NCBI RefSeq assembly: GCF_900167565.1
Contig: NZ_FUZV01000002.1
Location: forward strand, 1,054,001-1,118,000
DNA length: 64,000 bases
From: Pseudoxanthomonas indica
GTDB lineage: Bacteria > Pseudomonadota > Gammaproteobacteria > Xanthomonadales > Xanthomonadaceae
Reading direction: 5' to 3'
Both the position numbers and the translations under genes were made by a program. The notes under the pieces were generated by a model. It had not been told where the DNA came from and searched no databases. It was given only the letters and a program-made list of their open reading frames with translations. Below are positions 13,268 to 29,372 of the stretch, in pieces; position 1 is the stretch's first letter; every line of letters begins with the position of its first letter.

Positions 13268-16192
13268 ATGCTCTCTGGAACCGGGATGTCCAGCCAATCC
13301 GCGAGCGCCGGCATGATGCCCGGCGACCCTGCCACCACGCCCACCGAACGGGTGCTCCAGGTATTGCTGGAGATGCTGCCGGCCGGCAGCGCGCTGGCGG
13401 TGAGCTGGCGCGACTGGGCCCTGGGTACCGGCGGGCTGGCCACGGACCAGGCGAGTACGGCCCTGCGCCGACGCGCCGAACAGATCCTGGCCGATGGCGA
13501 CGCGGTGCTGCGGCCGATGCCCGGCGAAATCGCCCTGACCTGGGAAAACAACGACGGCAACGCCCGCATGGCGCTGGCCGCGGTTCCCGGCGAGCCGCTG
13601 GATGCCGCGGCCAGCGCCTCGTTCTCGCTGCTGGCGCGGACCCTGGTGGGCGCCACCCTCGACACCGCGCGTGCGCATGCACGCATCGTCTCGCTGGAAA
13701 AATCCAAGCGCCTGCAGCAGGCGCTGTACGAAATCGCCGACCTGGCCGGTACCGATCTGGAAATGAGCGAAATGCTCCGCCGCATCCATGCGGTGGTGAA
13801 CTCGCTGATGTACGCCGAGAACTGCTACATCGTGCTGTACGACGATCAGCGCCGCAGCGTGCGCTTCCTGTACTTCGCCGACCAGAAGGATCCGTACATC
13901 GCCGAGCCGGACCGGGACTTCTCCGAAGAGGAGATGGCCAACAGCATGACCTTCGCCCTGCTCCGGCATGGCCAACCGCTGCGCGGGCCTTCCACGGTCA
14001 TCCGGCAGAAGCTGGGCGTGATCCGCGATCCCAGCCACGGCCCGGACAGCCAGGACTGGCTGGGCGTACCGATGCGCCGCGATGACCGGGTCTGCGGTGC
14101 GATCGTGGTGCAGAGCTACGACACCCCCGCCAGCTACGCCGATGAAGACCGCGCTCTGCTCGGTTACGTGGCCCAGCACATCCTGACCGCGCTGGACCGC
14201 AAGCACGCGCATGTGGACCTGGAACGGCGGGTCGAGGACCGCACCCACGAACTGCAGCGCGCCAACCGCGAACTGCAGGCCGAAATCATCGAACGCAAGC
14301 GCGCCGAGAAATTACAGAGCGCGCTGTTCCGCATCACCGACCTGGCCATCACCTCCGAGTCGCTGGAGCGCTTCTACGCCGATGTGCATGCGGTGGTGGA
14401 CGAACTGATTGACGCGCGCAATTTCTACATCGCGCTGCTTGGTGAGAACAAGCAGACCCTGCAATTTCCCTACACCATCGACGAGCGCGATCCGATGCGC
14501 AAGTCGCGCCGGATCGGCAACGGCCTGACCGAGTTCGTGATCGAAACCGGCAAGGCGCTGCTGGCCGACCGCACGGTCATCAGTGGCTTGGCCGAAGGCG
14601 GCAAGGTCATCCAGCACGGACCGCCGGCCTACAGCTGGCTGGGCGTGCCCTTGTTCCAGGGCGATGAAGTGCTGGGCGCGGTGGTGGTGCAGAGCTACTC
14701 ACCGGAAGTGAAGTTCACCGCGCACGATCAGAGCCTGCTGAACTTCGTCGCCCACAACATCGGCAACGGCCTGGCCCGCCAGCGCGCCCAGGAAAGCCTG
14801 CGCGTGGCCCATGCCGAACTGGAACGACGGGTCGATGAACGCACGCGCGAACTGGCCGAAGCCAATACCCAGCTGCGTGCGCAGATCAGCGAGCGCCTGC
14901 GCGCCGAGCAACGCCTGACCCACCAGGCCACGCACGATGCGCTGACCGGCCTGCCGAATCGTCCGCACCTGCTGGACCGGCTGTCGGCGGCCATCGAGCG
15001 CGCCCGCCATGGCGATGGCCAGGCCTTTGCCGTGCTGTTCCTGGATCTGGATCGCTTCAAGCTGGTCAATGACAGCATCGGCCACGCCGCGGGTGATGAG
15101 CTGCTGATCGAAGTCGCGCGCCGCATCACCATGACGGTGCGCGGCAACGACGTGGTCTCGCGTCTGGGCGGCGATGAATTCGCCGTGCTGATGGAATACG
15201 CCGACGACGAAGAGAACATCCGCGAACTCTGCCAGCGCCTGCTCAGCGTGCTGGCGCGACCGATGTGGGTGGCCGGGCGCGAACTGTATCCTTCGGCCAG
15301 CCTGGGCATTGCGGTCTGGCATCCGCGCTATCGCAACGGCGAAGAACTGCTGCGCGACGCCGACGCCGCCATGTACCGCGCCAAGGAGCAGGGCCGCGAT
15401 CGCTGCGCCATGTTCGACGAGGCCATGCGCGAAGCCGCCATGCACAGCCTGGACCTGCAGGCGGATCTGCGTCGGGCCATCAACAACCGCGACTTCCTGC
15501 CGTTCTACCAACCCATCCTGCGGCTGGATGACGGCGAGGTGGTGGGCTACGAAGCGCTGCTGCGCTGGCAGCACGAGCGCCGCGGCCTGCTGACCCCGCC
15601 GGACTTCATCGATCTGGGCGAAGACAGCGGTTTGATCGAACAGGTCGACTGGCTGATCTACGAACAGGTGGTCAGGCAGATTGCCCGCGGCGGCGATGGC
15701 TATGTGTCGGTGAACGTGTCACCGCGACACTTCCGATCGCCCGACTTCGCGGATCGTCTGCTGGCCATGTTCGAGGCCCAGGGAGCGGATCCCTCGCGTC
15801 TGCGGGTGGAAATCACCGAGGTGGCGCTGCTCGATGACGCGCCGCGCACCTTGCGCACGCTGAGCACCTTGCGCGAGCACGGCATCCTGGCGCAGCTGGA
15901 CGACTTCGGCACCGGCTTCTCGGCCTTGTCGTACCTGCACCGGTTCCCGATTTCGGTGCTCAAGATTGATCGCAGCTTCATCGCCGGCATCGGCGATGAA
16001 GGGCGACCCGAAAGCCTGGGCCTGGTCCGCGCCATTCTGGCCCTGGCCCGCACCCTGGGCATCGACACCATCGCCGAAGGCATTGAAACCGACGAGCAGC
16101 GCCAGGCGCTGCTGGAGCTGGGTTGCAGTTTCGGCCAGGGCTATCTGCTGGGCAGGCCGACGGCGGAAATGGGTGGCGTGGCGTTGGTGTGA
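13268..16192 (+). CDS. GAF-GAF-GGDEF-EAL cyclic-di-GMP signalling protein
   Basis: A 974-residue soluble protein. An N-terminal region of about 150 residues is followed by two GAF sensor domains (about 155-310 and 350-505), each trailed by a charged coiled coil (LERRVEDRTHELQ and LERRVDERTRELA). A GGDEF domain has the intact motif at 634-638, preceded by RGND, the RxxD inhibitory site, at the canonical five-residue spacing. The EAL domain keeps E762 of EALLRW, NVSPRHF, KIDRSFI and DDFGTGF. Both cyclase and phosphodiesterase residues look functional. The two related GAF domains may bind a nucleotide or redox ligand. An internal ATG at 13286 has a better ribosome site (GGAA) than the first ATG. 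Confidence 0.92.
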   Translation: MLSGTGMSSQSASAGMMPGDPATTPTERVLQVLLEMLPAGSALAVSWRDWALGTGGLATDQASTALRRRAEQILADGDAVLRPMPGEIALTWENNDGNARMALAAVPGEPLDAAASASFSLLARTLVGATLDTARAHARIVSLEKSKRLQQALYEIADLAGTDLEMSEMLRRIHAVVNSLMYAENCYIVLYDDQRRSVRFLYFADQKDPYIAEPDRDFSEEEMANSMTFALLRHGQPLRGPSTVIRQKLGVIRDPSHGPDSQDWLGVPMRRDDRVCGAIVVQSYDTPASYADEDRALLGYVAQHILTALDRKHAHVDLERRVEDRTHELQRANRELQAEIIERKRAEKLQSALFRITDLAITSESLERFYADVHAVVDELIDARNFYIALLGENKQTLQFPYTIDERDPMRKSRRIGNGLTEFVIETGKALLADRTVISGLAEGGKVIQHGPPAYSWLGVPLFQGDEVLGAVVVQSYSPEVKFTAHDQSLLNFVAHNIGNGLARQRAQESLRVAHAELERRVDERTRELAEANTQLRAQISERLRAEQRLTHQATHDALTGLPNRPHLLDRLSAAIERARHGDGQAFAVLFLDLDRFKLVNDSIGHAAGDELLIEVARRITMTVRGNDVVSRLGGDEFAVLMEYADDEENIRELCQRLLSVLARPMWVAGRELYPSASLGIAVWHPRYRNGEELLRDADAAMYRAKEQGRDRCAMFDEAMREAAMHSLDLQADLRRAINNRDFLPFYQPILRLDDGEVVGYEALLRWQHERRGLLTPPDFIDLGEDSGLIEQVDWLIYEQVVRQIARGGDGYVSVNVSPRHFRSPDFADRLLAMFEAQGADPSRLRVEITEVALLDDAPRTLRTLSTLREHGILAQLDDFGTGFSALSYLHRFPISVLKIDRSFIAGIGDEGRPESLGLVRAILALARTLGIDTIAEGIETDEQRQALLELGCSFGQGYLLGRPTAEMGGVALV

Positions 16193-16261
16193 TGGCGGCG
16201 CCTGCCTGAAAGTCTGCTGAGGGCGCTGGAACCGGGTGATTGAGTCCGGCCGCCGGCTGTA

Positions 16262-24522: not shown

Positions 24523-24702
24523 GTGGTGATCTCCCCCCGGAGACGTACAGCGTAGGAGAGCGTCTGGCGTGCCGCAACGGCGTTGCGTGCGAGCGTAAGC
24601 AAAGTAACGCAATGTTTCCTGGATGGCGCTTGTGGCGATGCGTGCGTGGCCCGAACATACGCCCACAGCGTCGTCGTCGGCGCGAAGCAGCGGAAGCACG
24701 AC

Positions 24703-25689
24703 ATGCAGCAACTGGTCGAAGTCTTTGGCGTGTGGCTGGTCTTCGTCAATGTCCTGGCGTTGTCGCTGGGTCTGCCGGTGCCGGCGCTGCCCACGTTGAT
24801 CCTGGTCGGCGCGGGCATCCAGCTGCATGCCGATCCGGCCTGGCCGGCACTGCTCGGCGTATTGGCCGTGTCGATCAGCGCCAGCCTGCTGGGCGATGCC
24901 GCCTGGTATTACGCCGGTCGCCGTTACGGCATGCGCACGCTGCAATCGCTGTGCCGGTTGTCGCTCTCGCGCGACAGCTGCATGAAGCAGACCGAGCGCT
25001 TCTACAGCCGCTTCGGCGTGCGCGTGCTGACCGTGGCCAAATTCGTGCCGGGCCTGTCGATGGTGTCGGTGCCGCTGGCCGGCGCCATGCAGGCCAGCCT
25101 GCCGCGTTTCCTGCGCTATGACGGCATCGGCGCCGCATTGTGGGCCAGCCTGGGCCTGGCGTTGGGGGCGATCTTTGCGCGCCAGGTGGAGCAGGTGATC
25201 GACATCCTCTCGCAGTTGGGCGGTGGCACCGTCGCCGTGCTGCTGATCGGTCTGACCGCCTACATCGGCTATCGCTGGTGGCGGCGCCGCAGCCTGTTCA
25301 AGATGCTGGAAACGCAGCGGGTGGAGGTGGCGGAACTGCAGTCGCATCTGCAGACGTCGCCACTGCCGCTGCTGCTGGATATCCGCGCGCCCGGCCTGCG
25401 CGATGTCGATCCTTTCATTATCCCCGGCGCCGAGTTTGCCGATGAGCGCAAGCTGGAACCGATCCTGGCCGCGCATCCGCGCGATACCCGGATCGTGATC
25501 TACTGCGCCTGCCCGAACGAGGTCTCTGCCGCCTGGATGGCGGCGCAGTTGCGTCGGCATGGCTTCACCAACGTCCTGCCTTTGCGGGGTGGTATCGATG
25601 CCTGGCGTGCCGCCGGCTTTCCCGTGGTCGCCATCCCGCCCGGCAATGCCTCGTTGCCAGCCAACGCCGAGGCCAGCGCCGACGCCTGA
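24703..25689 (+). CDS. DedA-family membrane protein fused to rhodanese domain
   Basis: A 328-residue two-domain protein. Residues 1-200 are a DedA (VTT/SNARE-associated) membrane domain with GLPVPALPTL, GDAAWYYAGRRYG and the conserved FVPGLSMVSVPLAGAM. After a final helix and RWWRRR, residues 215-320 form a rhodanese domain with the catalytic-loop Cys in YCACPNEVSA. DedA proteins are lipid scramblases or undecaprenyl-phosphate recyclers; rhodaneses carry persulfide sulfur. The fused role is unknown. I chose the ATG at 24703, which has GGAAG upstream and begins the membrane domain. The fusion is known in related bacteria to my recollection. Confidence 0.87.
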   Translation: MQQLVEVFGVWLVFVNVLALSLGLPVPALPTLILVGAGIQLHADPAWPALLGVLAVSISASLLGDAAWYYAGRRYGMRTLQSLCRLSLSRDSCMKQTERFYSRFGVRVLTVAKFVPGLSMVSVPLAGAMQASLPRFLRYDGIGAALWASLGLALGAIFARQVEQVIDILSQLGGGTVAVLLIGLTAYIGYRWWRRRSLFKMLETQRVEVAELQSHLQTSPLPLLLDIRAPGLRDVDPFIIPGAEFADERKLEPILAAHPRDTRIVIYCACPNEVSAAWMAAQLRRHGFTNVLPLRGGIDAWRAAGFPVVAIPPGNASLPANAEASADA

Positions 25690-25692
25690 GCC

Positions 25693-26580
25693 TCAGGGCT
25701 GGATGCAGACCCGGTTGCGACCTTCGCTCTTGGCGCGATACAGGCCGGCGTCGGCCGCCGCCATCATCCGGCTGCAGGTATCGCGATGCGGATTGAGCGC
25801 AGCGATTCCGATGCTCACGGTGATGTGTTGATCTTCTCCGCCCGGCTTGAACACCGAATCGGCGATGGCCTGGCGCAGGCGCTCGGCGAAACCGAACGCC
25901 GCTTCGCTGTCGCACTCCGGCAGCAACACCGCGAACTCCTCGCCGCCGATGCGCGCGGCGGCATCGTCATTGCGCACGTGGCGACGCAGGATTGCCGCAA
26001 TCTGGCGCAGCACATGGTCGCCGGAAATGTGGCCGTAGCGATCATTGATCGGCTTGAACAGATCCACGTCGATGATGCACATCGCCAACGGCCGCTGGTG
26101 CCGCATGGCGCGGGCGATTTCGCGATCGACCGTGTCGATGAAGTGACGGCGGTTGTACAGCTCGGTCAGCGCGTCATGCGTGGCGAGCTGGTAGATCTCT
26201 TCGTGGTAGTGCGCTTCCAGGCTGGCATGGCTGATGAACTTCAGGATGCTTTCGCCCAGGGTCAGGTGATCACCGTCCTGCAGTTCGGCCTCGCTGATCG
26301 GCGCTTCGTTCAGGCGGGTGGGATTGGTGGCCTGCAGATCGCGCACGCGGTAACGGTCGCCTTCGCGCCAGATTTCGCAGTGTCGGCGCGAGACGCTGGC
26401 ATGCGGGATGTGCAGGTCTGCCTCGCGTGAGCGACCCACCACCACCGGCTGCTCATCGATGTCGGCGCGCCGGCCCAGGCCTTCGCCCTGGATGACCACC
26501 ACGCACGCCGAACGCGTGCCGCGCGGCGTCGGGCCGTCGCTGCAGATCGTGCGCTGGGTGGTGTCGTGGTCGGGGGCCAT
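25693..26580 (-). CDS. FHA-GGDEF diguanylate cyclase
   Basis: A 295-residue soluble protein. An N-terminal forkhead-associated domain (about 25-115) has the phosphothreonine-binding core GRSREADLHIPHASVSRRH and the later NPTRLN. A short helix links it to a GGDEF domain with the active motif GGEEF, the inhibitory-site RNDD five residues before it, and DVDLFKPINDRYGH for metal and nucleotide binding. It should make cyclic-di-GMP, gated by binding of a phosphothreonine partner. The start lies 101 bases from the divergent Ser/Thr kinase gene, a likely partner. Four bases separate its stop from the DedA gene. Confidence 0.92.
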   Translation of the reverse strand: MAPDHDTTQRTICSDGPTPRGTRSACVVVIQGEGLGRRADIDEQPVVVGRSREADLHIPHASVSRRHCEIWREGDRYRVRDLQATNPTRLNEAPISEAELQDGDHLTLGESILKFISHASLEAHYHEEIYQLATHDALTELYNRRHFIDTVDREIARAMRHQRPLAMCIIDVDLFKPINDRYGHISGDHVLRQIAAILRRHVRNDDAAARIGGEEFAVLLPECDSEAAFGFAERLRQAIADSVFKPGGEDQHITVSIGIAALNPHRDTCSRMMAAADAGLYRAKSEGRNRVCIQP

Positions 26581-26681
26581 GCGCCGTGGGAGGTCAGTGC
26601 GGCAGGGCGTCGAGTGTAGCCGGTCCGGGCGGACACTGCCGCCGCATCTGGGTACCATGCAGGCCTCCAGGGGGATTGACC

Positions 26682-29372
26682 ATGTCTGCAGCGCCGCCGC
26701 CGGCGGAAGATCCGGAAGCCACCGAGCTTCTGGTGACCCAGTTGTCCGATGCCGCGCCGGAAGGCGCGTCCGGCTTCGCGCCGGGCATGCGGCTGGGCGC
26801 CTATCGGCTGGATGCGTTGCTGGGGCAGGGTGGCATGGGTGAGGTCTACCGGGCCGAACAACTGGAGCCGGTGCGGCGCACAGTGGCGCTCAAGCTGTTG
26901 CGTGGTCGCCGGCTGGACGCGCGCCATCTGGCTTATTTCGAGATCGAGCGGCAATTGCTGGCACAGATGCGCCACCCCGCCATCGCCCAGATCTACGACG
27001 CCGGCACCACCGCCGATGGCGTGCCGTACTTCGCCATGGAATTCAGCGAAGGTGTCACGGTCACCCGTTTCTGCGCCGAGCAGGCGTTGTCGCTGCGCGA
27101 GCGTCTGGCGCTGTTCCTGCGTATCTGCGAAGGCGTGCAGCACGCGCATCACAAAGGTGTCATCCACCGTGATCTGAAGCCGGGGAACCTGCTGGTGGAT
27201 CGCGTCGATGGCCGCCCCATGCCCAAGATCATCGACTTCGGCATCGCCATGGTCGCTTCGCGCTCGTTCGATGGGCCGCAGGAGCGCGCCGGCACGCCGG
27301 TCTACATGAGTCCGGAACAGGCGGCGGGTGACCTGGCTGCCATCGATACCCGCAGCGATGTCTACGCGCTGGGCGTACTGCTGCACGAGTTGCTCGCAGG
27401 TGCGCGGCCCGGCGCCGACAGCGACGGCATGACTGAGCTGGCCTCGCAGACCCTGGAGACGCTGCCGCCGGACAACCCGCGACTGGCCGGCATGGCGCGC
27501 GCGCCGCTGCGCCGCGCGCTGCGCGCTGAACTGGATTGGGTGGTGGCCAAGGCCATGCGCCATGAGCGCGAGGATCGCTACGCTTCGGTCGGCGAACTGG
27601 CTGCCGACGTGCGCCGCTTCCTGCAGGGTGAGCCGCTGCTGGCCGTGCCTTCCAGCCGGCGCTACCGCGCCGGCAAGTTCATCGGCCGTCATCGGACTGC
27701 CATGCTGGCGGCGTCGGTCGTGCTGTGCGCGCTGGTGGCCGGCTTGGGCCTGTCCGTGTACGGCCTGATGCAGGCGCGCGAGCAACGCGCATTGGCGGAA
27801 TTGCGCAGCCGCGAACTGGAGCGCGTCGCCGGTTTCCAGCAAGCCATGCTGCAGGACATCGACATCGAGGCCATGGGCGCCGGGTTGTCGACCGCCTTGC
27901 GTGATCAGTGGCTGCAGCGATCAGTGGAAGAGCGTGCCGCCCTGGATCGCATCCTGGCGCAGGCCAGCAGCGCCGATGTGGCGCGGCGGATGATTGATCG
28001 CAACCTGCTGGTGCATGCCGACGCGGCGATTACCCGCGACTTTGCCGACCAGCCGGCGCTGGCCGCGGACCTGCGCGAATCCATCGCGCGCGTGCACAGC
28101 GCTCTGGGCATGCCCAACGAGGCGGCGGCCGGCTTTGCGCGGGTTGCCGAGTTCCGCACCACCGCGTTCGGCGAAGCCGACCCGCGCACGCTGGCGGCGC
28201 GTCGCGGCCAGGCCGATGCCCTGCTCAGTGCCGGCCATGTCGATGCCGGCGCGGTGATCATCACGCGCGCGCGGCCGCTGGCCGAACGCCTGCCTTTGAA
28301 CGATGCCACCCGCGTCGGTTTTGCGCTGGCGCAGGCCGACGTGCTCTCGGCGCGCGGCGAGCGTGAGCGCGCGCGCCGGCAATTGCAGGCATTGCACGAT
28401 GCGCTGGTCGCCGTGCATGGCGAACGCGATCTCGCCAGCATGGATGTGCTCAATGCGCTGGCCAACCAGCAGCGCGCGGTCGGCGACCTCGCACAGGCGC
28501 GCGCCAACATGGAAAAACTGGTGCCGTTGCGGGTGGCCGTGCAGGGCGCCGAGCACAAGGATAGCCTGGCAGCGCAGGGCAACCTGGCAGTGATGCGCAT
28601 GTTGAGCGGCGAGAAGGAGGGTGCGGTCGCCCTGCAACGCGAACTGGTGGCCATCCAGACTCGCCGCCTGGGCGCCGAGCATCCCATCACCCTGCATGCG
28701 CGCAGCACGCTCGGCAGCATGTTGTCCGATTCCGGGCAGGCGGAAGAAGCGCTGCCGCTCATGACCGCCGTGCTTGCCGCCCGCGAACGCGTGTTGGGCG
28801 CCGAACATCCGCTGACCCTGCGCACTCGACTCAACCTGGCCACCACCTACGCGCGGCTGGAAGACTTCAAGGCGGCATTACCGTTGGAACAGCAGGTGCT
28901 GGAAGCGCGCACGCGCCTGCTGGGCGCCAGTCATCCGGATACCTTGTCGGTGGTCATCAATCATGCCGGCACCTTGCTGCACGATGATCAGCCCCAGGCC
29001 AGCCTGGACTTGCTGGACAAGGCGATTCCACTGGGTCGCGAGGTGATGGGGGTCAAGCATCCGCAATGGCAGCGCGCGTTGTTGATTCGCGCAGACGCCA
29101 ACATGGAAGTGGGCCAGCAGGCGCGCGCCATCGCGGCGTACCGCGAACTGCTGGACGTACGCCAACACCTGTTGGGCGACCAGCATCCGGAGACCGTGCA
29201 CGCCGCCTGGAACCTGGTGGATGCCTACGAGTCACTGAACCAAACGGCGCAAGCGCGCGCCGTGGATGATCGTTATCTGCAGCCGCTGCTGAAATCCGAC
29301 CCCGCCCTACTGAGCGAGCCGTTGGCGGCGCTGGCGACGGCGATGCGCCGCGAAGGCCGCATCACCCATTGA
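26682..29372 (+). CDS. Membrane Ser/Thr protein kinase with TPR-like repeats
   Basis: An 896-residue protein. The kinase domain (about 40-310) has the glycine loop LLGQGGMGEVY, VALKLL lysine, HRDLKPGN with catalytic D164, DFGIAM and SPEQA. One membrane helix follows at about 340-362. The C-terminal 530 residues are a helical-repeat region with repeating units such as LGAEHPITLHARSTLG and LGAEHPLTLRTRLNLA, which fit tetratricopeptide (kinesin-light-chain-like) repeats in the periplasm. The intact motifs predict activity. A ribosome site GGGGGA is eight bases from the ATG. Its target is unknown; the divergent FHA-GGDEF protein is a natural candidate. Confidence 0.92.
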   Translation: MSAAPPPAEDPEATELLVTQLSDAAPEGASGFAPGMRLGAYRLDALLGQGGMGEVYRAEQLEPVRRTVALKLLRGRRLDARHLAYFEIERQLLAQMRHPAIAQIYDAGTTADGVPYFAMEFSEGVTVTRFCAEQALSLRERLALFLRICEGVQHAHHKGVIHRDLKPGNLLVDRVDGRPMPKIIDFGIAMVASRSFDGPQERAGTPVYMSPEQAAGDLAAIDTRSDVYALGVLLHELLAGARPGADSDGMTELASQTLETLPPDNPRLAGMARAPLRRALRAELDWVVAKAMRHEREDRYASVGELAADVRRFLQGEPLLAVPSSRRYRAGKFIGRHRTAMLAASVVLCALVAGLGLSVYGLMQAREQRALAELRSRELERVAGFQQAMLQDIDIEAMGAGLSTALRDQWLQRSVEERAALDRILAQASSADVARRMIDRNLLVHADAAITRDFADQPALAADLRESIARVHSALGMPNEAAAGFARVAEFRTTAFGEADPRTLAARRGQADALLSAGHVDAGAVIITRARPLAERLPLNDATRVGFALAQADVLSARGERERARRQLQALHDALVAVHGERDLASMDVLNALANQQRAVGDLAQARANMEKLVPLRVAVQGAEHKDSLAAQGNLAVMRMLSGEKEGAVALQRELVAIQTRRLGAEHPITLHARSTLGSMLSDSGQAEEALPLMTAVLAARERVLGAEHPLTLRTRLNLATTYARLEDFKAALPLEQQVLEARTRLLGASHPDTLSVVINHAGTLLHDDQPQASLDLLDKAIPLGREVMGVKHPQWQRALLIRADANMEVGQQARAIAAYRELLDVRQHLLGDQHPETVHAAWNLVDAYESLNQTAQARAVDDRYLQPLLKSDPALLSEPLAALATAMRREGRITH

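Follow-up and report, generated by a model that had tools for sequence, protein, structure and literature searches.

A divergently transcribed Ser/Thr kinase and FHA-GGDEF diguanylate cyclase of Pseudoxanthomonas indica with conserved threonines in both N-terminal tails

How might a Ser/Thr kinase control the synthesis of cyclic-di-GMP, which is usually coupled to histidine kinases or to directly bound ligands? The question is raised by two neighboring genes in a 64,000-nucleotide stretch of the Pseudoxanthomonas indica genome (assembly GCF_900167565.1, contig NZ_FUZV01000002.1, positions 1,054,001 to 1,118,000 of the forward strand; here the window), one encoding a Ser/Thr kinase with a likely membrane helix and a TPR domain and the other a diguanylate cyclase (DGC) in which an FHA domain precedes the GGDEF domain. 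FHA-GGDEF enzymes are an exception to control by histidine kinases or ligands, and the 2019 paper on the structurally solved one, DgcB (Bd0742) of Bdellovibrio bacteriovorus, did not name its kinase (PMC6733907).

A sequence-only reading had proposed that the pair turns an envelope signal into cyclic-di-GMP through Ser/Thr phosphorylation, with the FHA domain binding the autophosphorylated kinase. We give roughly even probability to a more specific relay, in which the membrane kinase would activate its partner DGC through two phosphothreonine steps, the first resembling the action of the kinase PknG and the output resembling that of DgcB. A signal would be received at the TPR domain, and the kinase would autophosphorylate T14 of a T-x-x-L motif in its own N-terminal tail; the FHA domain of the DGC would dock on this phosphothreonine, and the docked kinase would phosphorylate the N-terminal tail of the DGC, most likely at T11 and perhaps at T8. 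The tail phosphothreonine would then be bound within the dimer to which it belongs, in the FHA cleft, releasing the kinase, and the two GGDEF domains would meet and produce cyclic-di-GMP until feedback through the I-site sets in. This output is known for DgcB, where a phosphopeptide and a disulfide-locked tail were used to show it, and would apply here by analogy. The relay is proposed because the pair has the parts of the PknG-OdhI/GarA system, with the substrate swapped for a DgcB-like cyclase and the kinase apparently anchored in the membrane. Since the DGC has a conserved threonine motif in the tail that corresponds to the FHA-binding tail of DgcB, the switch is likely to be phosphorylation of this tail and its subsequent capture by the protein's own FHA domain, kinase docking serving as recruitment. 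The architecture of the two proteins, the conserved threonines in both tails, the intact catalytic and phosphothreonine-binding motifs, and the genomic linkage were observed directly, and the conserved threonines in both disordered tails are new here.

The two genes and their protein domains

The DGC gene (25693..26580, minus strand) and the kinase gene (26682..29372, plus strand) are divergent, and their start codons lie 101 bp apart (intergenic region 26581..26681, as read from the sequence). Relatives back the call of the DGC start, where methionine is found in 120 of 121 sequences. The gap had been described as a shared promoter region of 101 bases. Its length stands. Neither a sigma-70-type promoter nor a terminator turned up in a consensus scan of positions 26450-26800, although GC-rich organisms may use other sequences; the description is a statement of position only.

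The DGC is 295 amino acids long, with Pfam matches to an FHA domain at residues 46-109 (26254..26445, minus strand; PF00498, E 6.8e-18) and to a GGDEF domain at residues 133-290 (25711..26184, minus strand; PF00990, E 1.4e-46). The GGEEF motif at residues 212-216 and the RxxD I-site at residues 203-206 are both invariant in 23 aligned orthologues. FHA residues R50, S64, R65, and N86 are invariant, and T85 is kept in at least 90%, in an alignment of 52 DGC sequences that included 36 of 120 listed relatives and 15 named loci (12 of them distant). These five residues (R50, S64, R65, T85, and N86) align with the phosphothreonine-binding residues R61, S75, R76, T96, and N97 of DgcB. The nearest solved relative of the DGC is DgcB itself (6hbz), as found both by phmmer (E 9e-43, residues 26-293) and by Foldseek (rank 1; E 1.3e-28; template modeling scores, 0.57/0.61; 32% identity by structure alignment), and the closest named relatives are from Pseudoxanthomonas, with up to 88% identity. 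Of 589 loci matched in one search, 80 were covered, and 16 of these (L039-L054) extend into the FHA part.

The kinase is 896 amino acids long and has Pfam matches to Pkinase, TPR_12, and TPR_10. The Pkinase match covers residues 41-256 (26802..27449, plus strand; PF00069, E 7.1e-38), and K71, H162-R163-D164, and D185-F186-G187 are invariant in an alignment of 40 kinases (the window kinase and 39 of 119 listed relatives). A hydropathy peak of 2.37 over 19 residues marks a likely membrane helix at residues 341-359 (27702..27758, plus strand), and the AlphaFold model (mean predicted local distance difference test [pLDDT] score, 78.0), in which the N-lobe is poor, has a helix at residues 338-358 and a helical solenoid at residues 395-890 (27864..29351, plus strand), where the TPR matches lie. 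The layout is therefore likely to be tail, kinase domain, membrane helix, and TPR solenoid, and the Arg and Lys residues ahead of the helix suggest that the solenoid is probably periplasmic. Assignment as a PASTA kinase (PknB/Stk1, NF033483) was rejected, as the score of 209.7 bits came from the kinase domain only and was below the curated cut-off of 450. Both genes are thus located where the sequence-only reading had put them, its domain assignments and intact catalytic motifs are borne out, and its repeat tail is recognized as a TPR domain behind the likely membrane helix.

Conserved threonines in both N-terminal tails

The ~24 residues that precede the FHA domain of the DGC are left disordered by AlphaFold; the segments listed with pLDDT scores of <50 cover residues 5-9 and 16-21 and not 10-15, and this pattern was not counted as evidence. 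Within the tail, a motif at residues 7-17 (26530..26562, minus strand) is conserved. Among 121 sequences, a count that drew on 120 listed of 2562 DGC matches, T7 was kept in 110, T8 in 118, Q9 in 117, R10 in 105, T11 in 121, S14 in 120, G16 in 121, and P17 in 120, and positions 2-6, 15, and 18-21 varied freely. T11 (codon 26548-26550, minus strand), which stands at the +3 position of T8, was also present in 29 of 30 family loci read by eye and in at least 90% of the 52 aligned sequences, including the 15 named loci, although the aligner may pair unrelated threonines in so short a tail. Over 27 loci, T11 is encoded by ACC (15 loci), ACG (11 loci), or ACT (1 locus), and G16 is encoded by four codons. 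Since synonymous codons vary at both positions, selection on the tail acts on the protein, and a DNA-level operator as the cause of the motif was set aside.

The N-terminal tail of the kinase (26682..26777, plus strand) is also disordered, with pLDDT scores of <50 over residues 1-32. In the 40 aligned kinases, T14 (codon 26721-26723, plus strand) and L17 (codon 26730-26732, plus strand) are the sole invariant columns ahead of residue 35. T[EQ]xL occurs within the first 45 residues in 112 of 119 kinases (from 120 listed, one of 688 amino acids having been dropped), and the remaining seven read TxxL. Of 27 DGC-adjoining kinases, 25 carry TxxL among the 40 residues that precede the kinase domain; for other Hanks kinases, with 60 such residues considered, the figure is 4 of 31. 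Two of these four, reading DDPTQAL (L226, G183) and DDATHAL (L227, G081), are short-tailed, unlinked TPR kinases from genomes in which the DGC is present without an adjoining kinase, and they could be its unlinked partners. At one locus with tandem kinases (L188, G128), the second kinase carries DDLAPTEGL. In another genome (L194, G126), the DGC tail reads TTQRI and the kinase tail reads TQSV, both off the family pattern.

Given the Thr-x-x-Leu motif of the kinase tail, FHA binding to the autophosphorylated kinase is plausible, and docking, the version given by the sequence-only reading, might even be the whole of the interaction. The FHA domain would then bind the kinase at T14 or at the activation loop, which would place or dimerize the DGC at the membrane, and the DGC tail would be no substrate. 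Such an arrangement agrees with the invariance of T14-x-x-L17, with the hydrophobic residue at +3, a kind that FHA domains are described as accepting among others (PMC4037201), and with the likely membrane helix of the kinase. However, it leaves the conserved motif of the DGC tail without explanation, and in DgcB a phosphopeptide supplied in trans is reported to have left the FHA contacts unchanged, from which its authors infer that binding in cis is needed (PMC6733907). We regard docking alone as unlikely.

The relay would have two tails serving one FHA pocket, and some tail resemblances, noticed after the fact, are compatible with this. In the four genomes of genus g25, the DGC tails read HTVVDATR, HTVVEATR, HTVVEATR, and HTVIEATR, and the orthologous kinases read TVLD in three genomes, the kinase found in the fourth reading TLRH. 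Both tails thus appear to have changed together, the DGC to TVVD, TVVE, or TVIE and the kinase to TVLD. In a Wenzhouxiangella, the DGC tail QRTELLGTQ resembles the RTELLATR tails of many main-group kinases.

Linkage of kinase and cyclase across genomes

The window genome has 28 GGDEF, 2 Pkinase, and 2 FHA matches in all, so that a random adjacency of FHA and kinase genes is unlikely. The family was sampled with 198 genomes; 44 of these contained the DGC, 33 the kinase, and 32 both. The corresponding numbers for the 54 genera were 16, 14, and 13. Presence was called at E <=1e-40 for the DGC and E <=1e-100 for the kinase, absence meaning no match at these thresholds, and the best 12 DGC and best 4 kinase first-look candidates were scored per genome. 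The pair is not confined to one strain, which would have spoken against the sequence-only reading: 27 of 35 close DGC loci (E <=1e-90) have a divergent adjoining kinase, 26 of them of the type seen in the window, from 11 genera. Three genomes of the same genus keep the flanking order ispG-PAP2-EamA-murB and have neither member of the pair.

Linkage is also seen at more distant FHA-GGDEF loci. At 8 of 26, a Hanks kinase lies no more than 3 kb away, in divergent (L042), co-directional (L045, L052, L151, and L167), or convergent (L155, L166, and L174) orientation. At GGDEF loci without an FHA domain, drawn from other organisms whose kinase numbers are not known, the count was 0 of 64, with two kinases at 4.3 and 4.6 kb. 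As L166 and L174 are from the same genus, the collapsed count is 7 of 25 (Fisher test against the control, 7e-5). The joint absence in genus-mates and the varied distant arrangements exceed what inherited gene order accounts for.

Several observations weigh against the relay. The Fisher values for co-occurrence (7.7e-26 for genomes and 6.6e-9 for genera) are overstated since the genomes are related. Eight of the 35 close DGC loci have no adjoining kinase, and the pair lies in an inherited order (ispG, PAP2, the pair, EamA, murB, and pyrD), with one or more of the flanking genes also present beside it in 18 of 20 relatives, so adjacency within the family is partly vertical. No kinase is near 18 of the 26 distant loci, although for 10 of the 26 one or both flanks fell short of 3 kb. 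In the tails, T11 is replaced by Ile in G126 (L038 and L194), and the TxxL motif is absent from the DGC-adjoining kinases of G128 and G126 (TQSV in the latter), from the Wenzhouxiangella kinase at L045 (THVE, within RTHVE), and from the unlinked kinase of G095 (TLRH). The residue at +3 of T11 is Ser14 (120 of 121 sequences), versus Val in DgcB, although FHA domains are described as not strictly selective at +3 (PMC4037201); it is because this hydrophobic residue is missing that we describe the DGC as working like DgcB and not as its orthologue. K72 of DgcB corresponds to Ala61 in the window DGC, although Lys is the family consensus in the 52 sequences, and in the AlphaFold model of the DGC the tail, mostly with pLDDT scores of <50, is not confidently docked in the FHA domain.

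The inherited gene order also fits a reading with no direct link between the two proteins, in which synteny keeps them as neighbors, phosphorylation of the DGC tail falls to a different kinase, and the adjoining kinase has other substrates. Two relatives that have the DGC without an adjoining kinase point the same way, as their genomes contain 30 and 36 kinase matches and yet the tail TTQRT is kept. Against this stand the loss of both genes together in the three genus-mates, the kinase linkage in arrangements beyond this gene order, and the fact that the window genome has only one other Hanks kinase, whose long N-terminal tail lacks TxxL. We consider an unconnected pair distinctly unlikely.

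Some further arrangements were observed. A TPR kinase with a long tail of another type occupies the ispG-murB site in G018 (L173), where the DGC is absent at the threshold used. In G097, tandem FHA-GGDEF genes (L170 and L169) lie on the same contig as a kinase ~20 kb away, and the spacing in G194 is similar. In G162 (L030), kinase matches in two frames reflect a gene split by a frameshift, either natural or due to sequencing error. Elsewhere in the window, positions 24583-25689 encode a single protein in which a rhodanese domain comes after a VTT (DedA-like) one, and positions ~14000-16230 encode a second GGDEF protein followed in frame by an apparent EAL domain, the EAL and GAF-like parts having been judged by eye.

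Relation to known systems

In type VI secretion, a Ser/Thr kinase acts with an FHA protein in the PpkA-Fha threonine phosphorylation pathway. The output there is secretion, and the window DGC was rejected as the secretion FHA protein TagH (TIGR03354), its score of 39.9 bits being below the curated cut-off of 120.25.

PknG, which acts on OdhI/GarA in corynebacteria and mycobacteria, is a soluble kinase without a membrane helix. It is described as recruiting OdhI/GarA through binding of the FHA domain to the autophosphorylated N-terminal tail of the kinase, after which a threonine in the N-terminal tail of the substrate is phosphorylated (PMC8546545). The window pair shares with this system a threonine in a disordered kinase tail, a C-terminal TPR domain, and an FHA substrate with a threonine in its own N-terminal tail, but the PknG structures are described without a membrane helix (PMC8546545), whereas the window kinase has the hydrophobic helix at residues 341-359. 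In addition, many PknGs have a rubredoxin domain, and OdhI/GarA regulates 2-oxoglutarate metabolism and not cyclic-di-GMP.

The closest precedent for the output is DgcB, in which the FHA ligand is reported to be the N-terminal tail of the protein itself; T14 of this tail, the counterpart of T11 in the window DGC, occupies the FHA cleft, and the enzyme is activated when a disulfide locks the tail there (PMC6733907). The window DGC resembles DgcB in its FHA-GGDEF order, its phosphothreonine-binding residues, its RxxD I-site, and its disordered N-terminal tail with a conserved threonine before the FHA domain. It differs in being only about a third identical, in the tail sequence (T-[LVIM]-L-S, compared with T-S-I-V in DgcB), and in having a kinase as its divergent neighbor, whereas the 2019 paper identified none for DgcB (PMC6733907). 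DgcB also bears on a reading of opposite sign, in which kinase docking or tail phosphorylation would keep the DGC inactive in an OdhI/GarA-like closure until a phosphatase releases it. Self-binding in OdhI/GarA is described as regulating by steric occlusion (PMC6733907), and the window genome has one PP2C_2 match, which is unlinked. In DgcB, however, the locked tail activates and removal of the FHA domain is reported not to (PMC6733907), and we give inhibition little probability. The pairing and domains on which the sequence-only reading built its interpretation stand, but it had overlooked both DgcB as an FHA-GGDEF precedent and the conserved threonine motif of the DGC tail.

The same parts are joined in one polypeptide in Sorangium cellulosum BE21_29150 (UniProt), noted as a kinase-tail-FHA-GGDEF fusion (PMC6733907) and compared here by description; in the window they are two divergent genes. 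Apart from this remark (PMC6733907), no Ser/Thr kinase-FHA-GGDEF pairing was found named in the open-access literature, which is weak evidence of absence, and by term search neither "FHA" nor "forkhead" occurs in the main text of a comprehensive census of cyclic-di-GMP sensors from 2022 (PMC8846402).

It is possible, at somewhat less than even probability, that the pair represents an undescribed two-protein module in which the phosphorylated tail of a transmembrane TPR kinase baits the FHA domain and the DGC tail is then phosphorylated by this kinase, so that an envelope signal would reach cyclic-di-GMP without a histidine kinase. Because bait and DGC tail would compete for one pocket and could change together, the partner kinases of other FHA-GGDEF enzymes, DgcB included, may be recognizable from their tails. 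In free-living bacteria, a conserved kinase-cyclase gene pair whose tail motifs match would supply the FHA-GGDEF class with a candidate for its missing kinase and makes the question testable with two purified proteins. The pair is real, is kept beyond the strain, and is mechanistically specific; its parts are of known kinds, and its output half is closely precedented.

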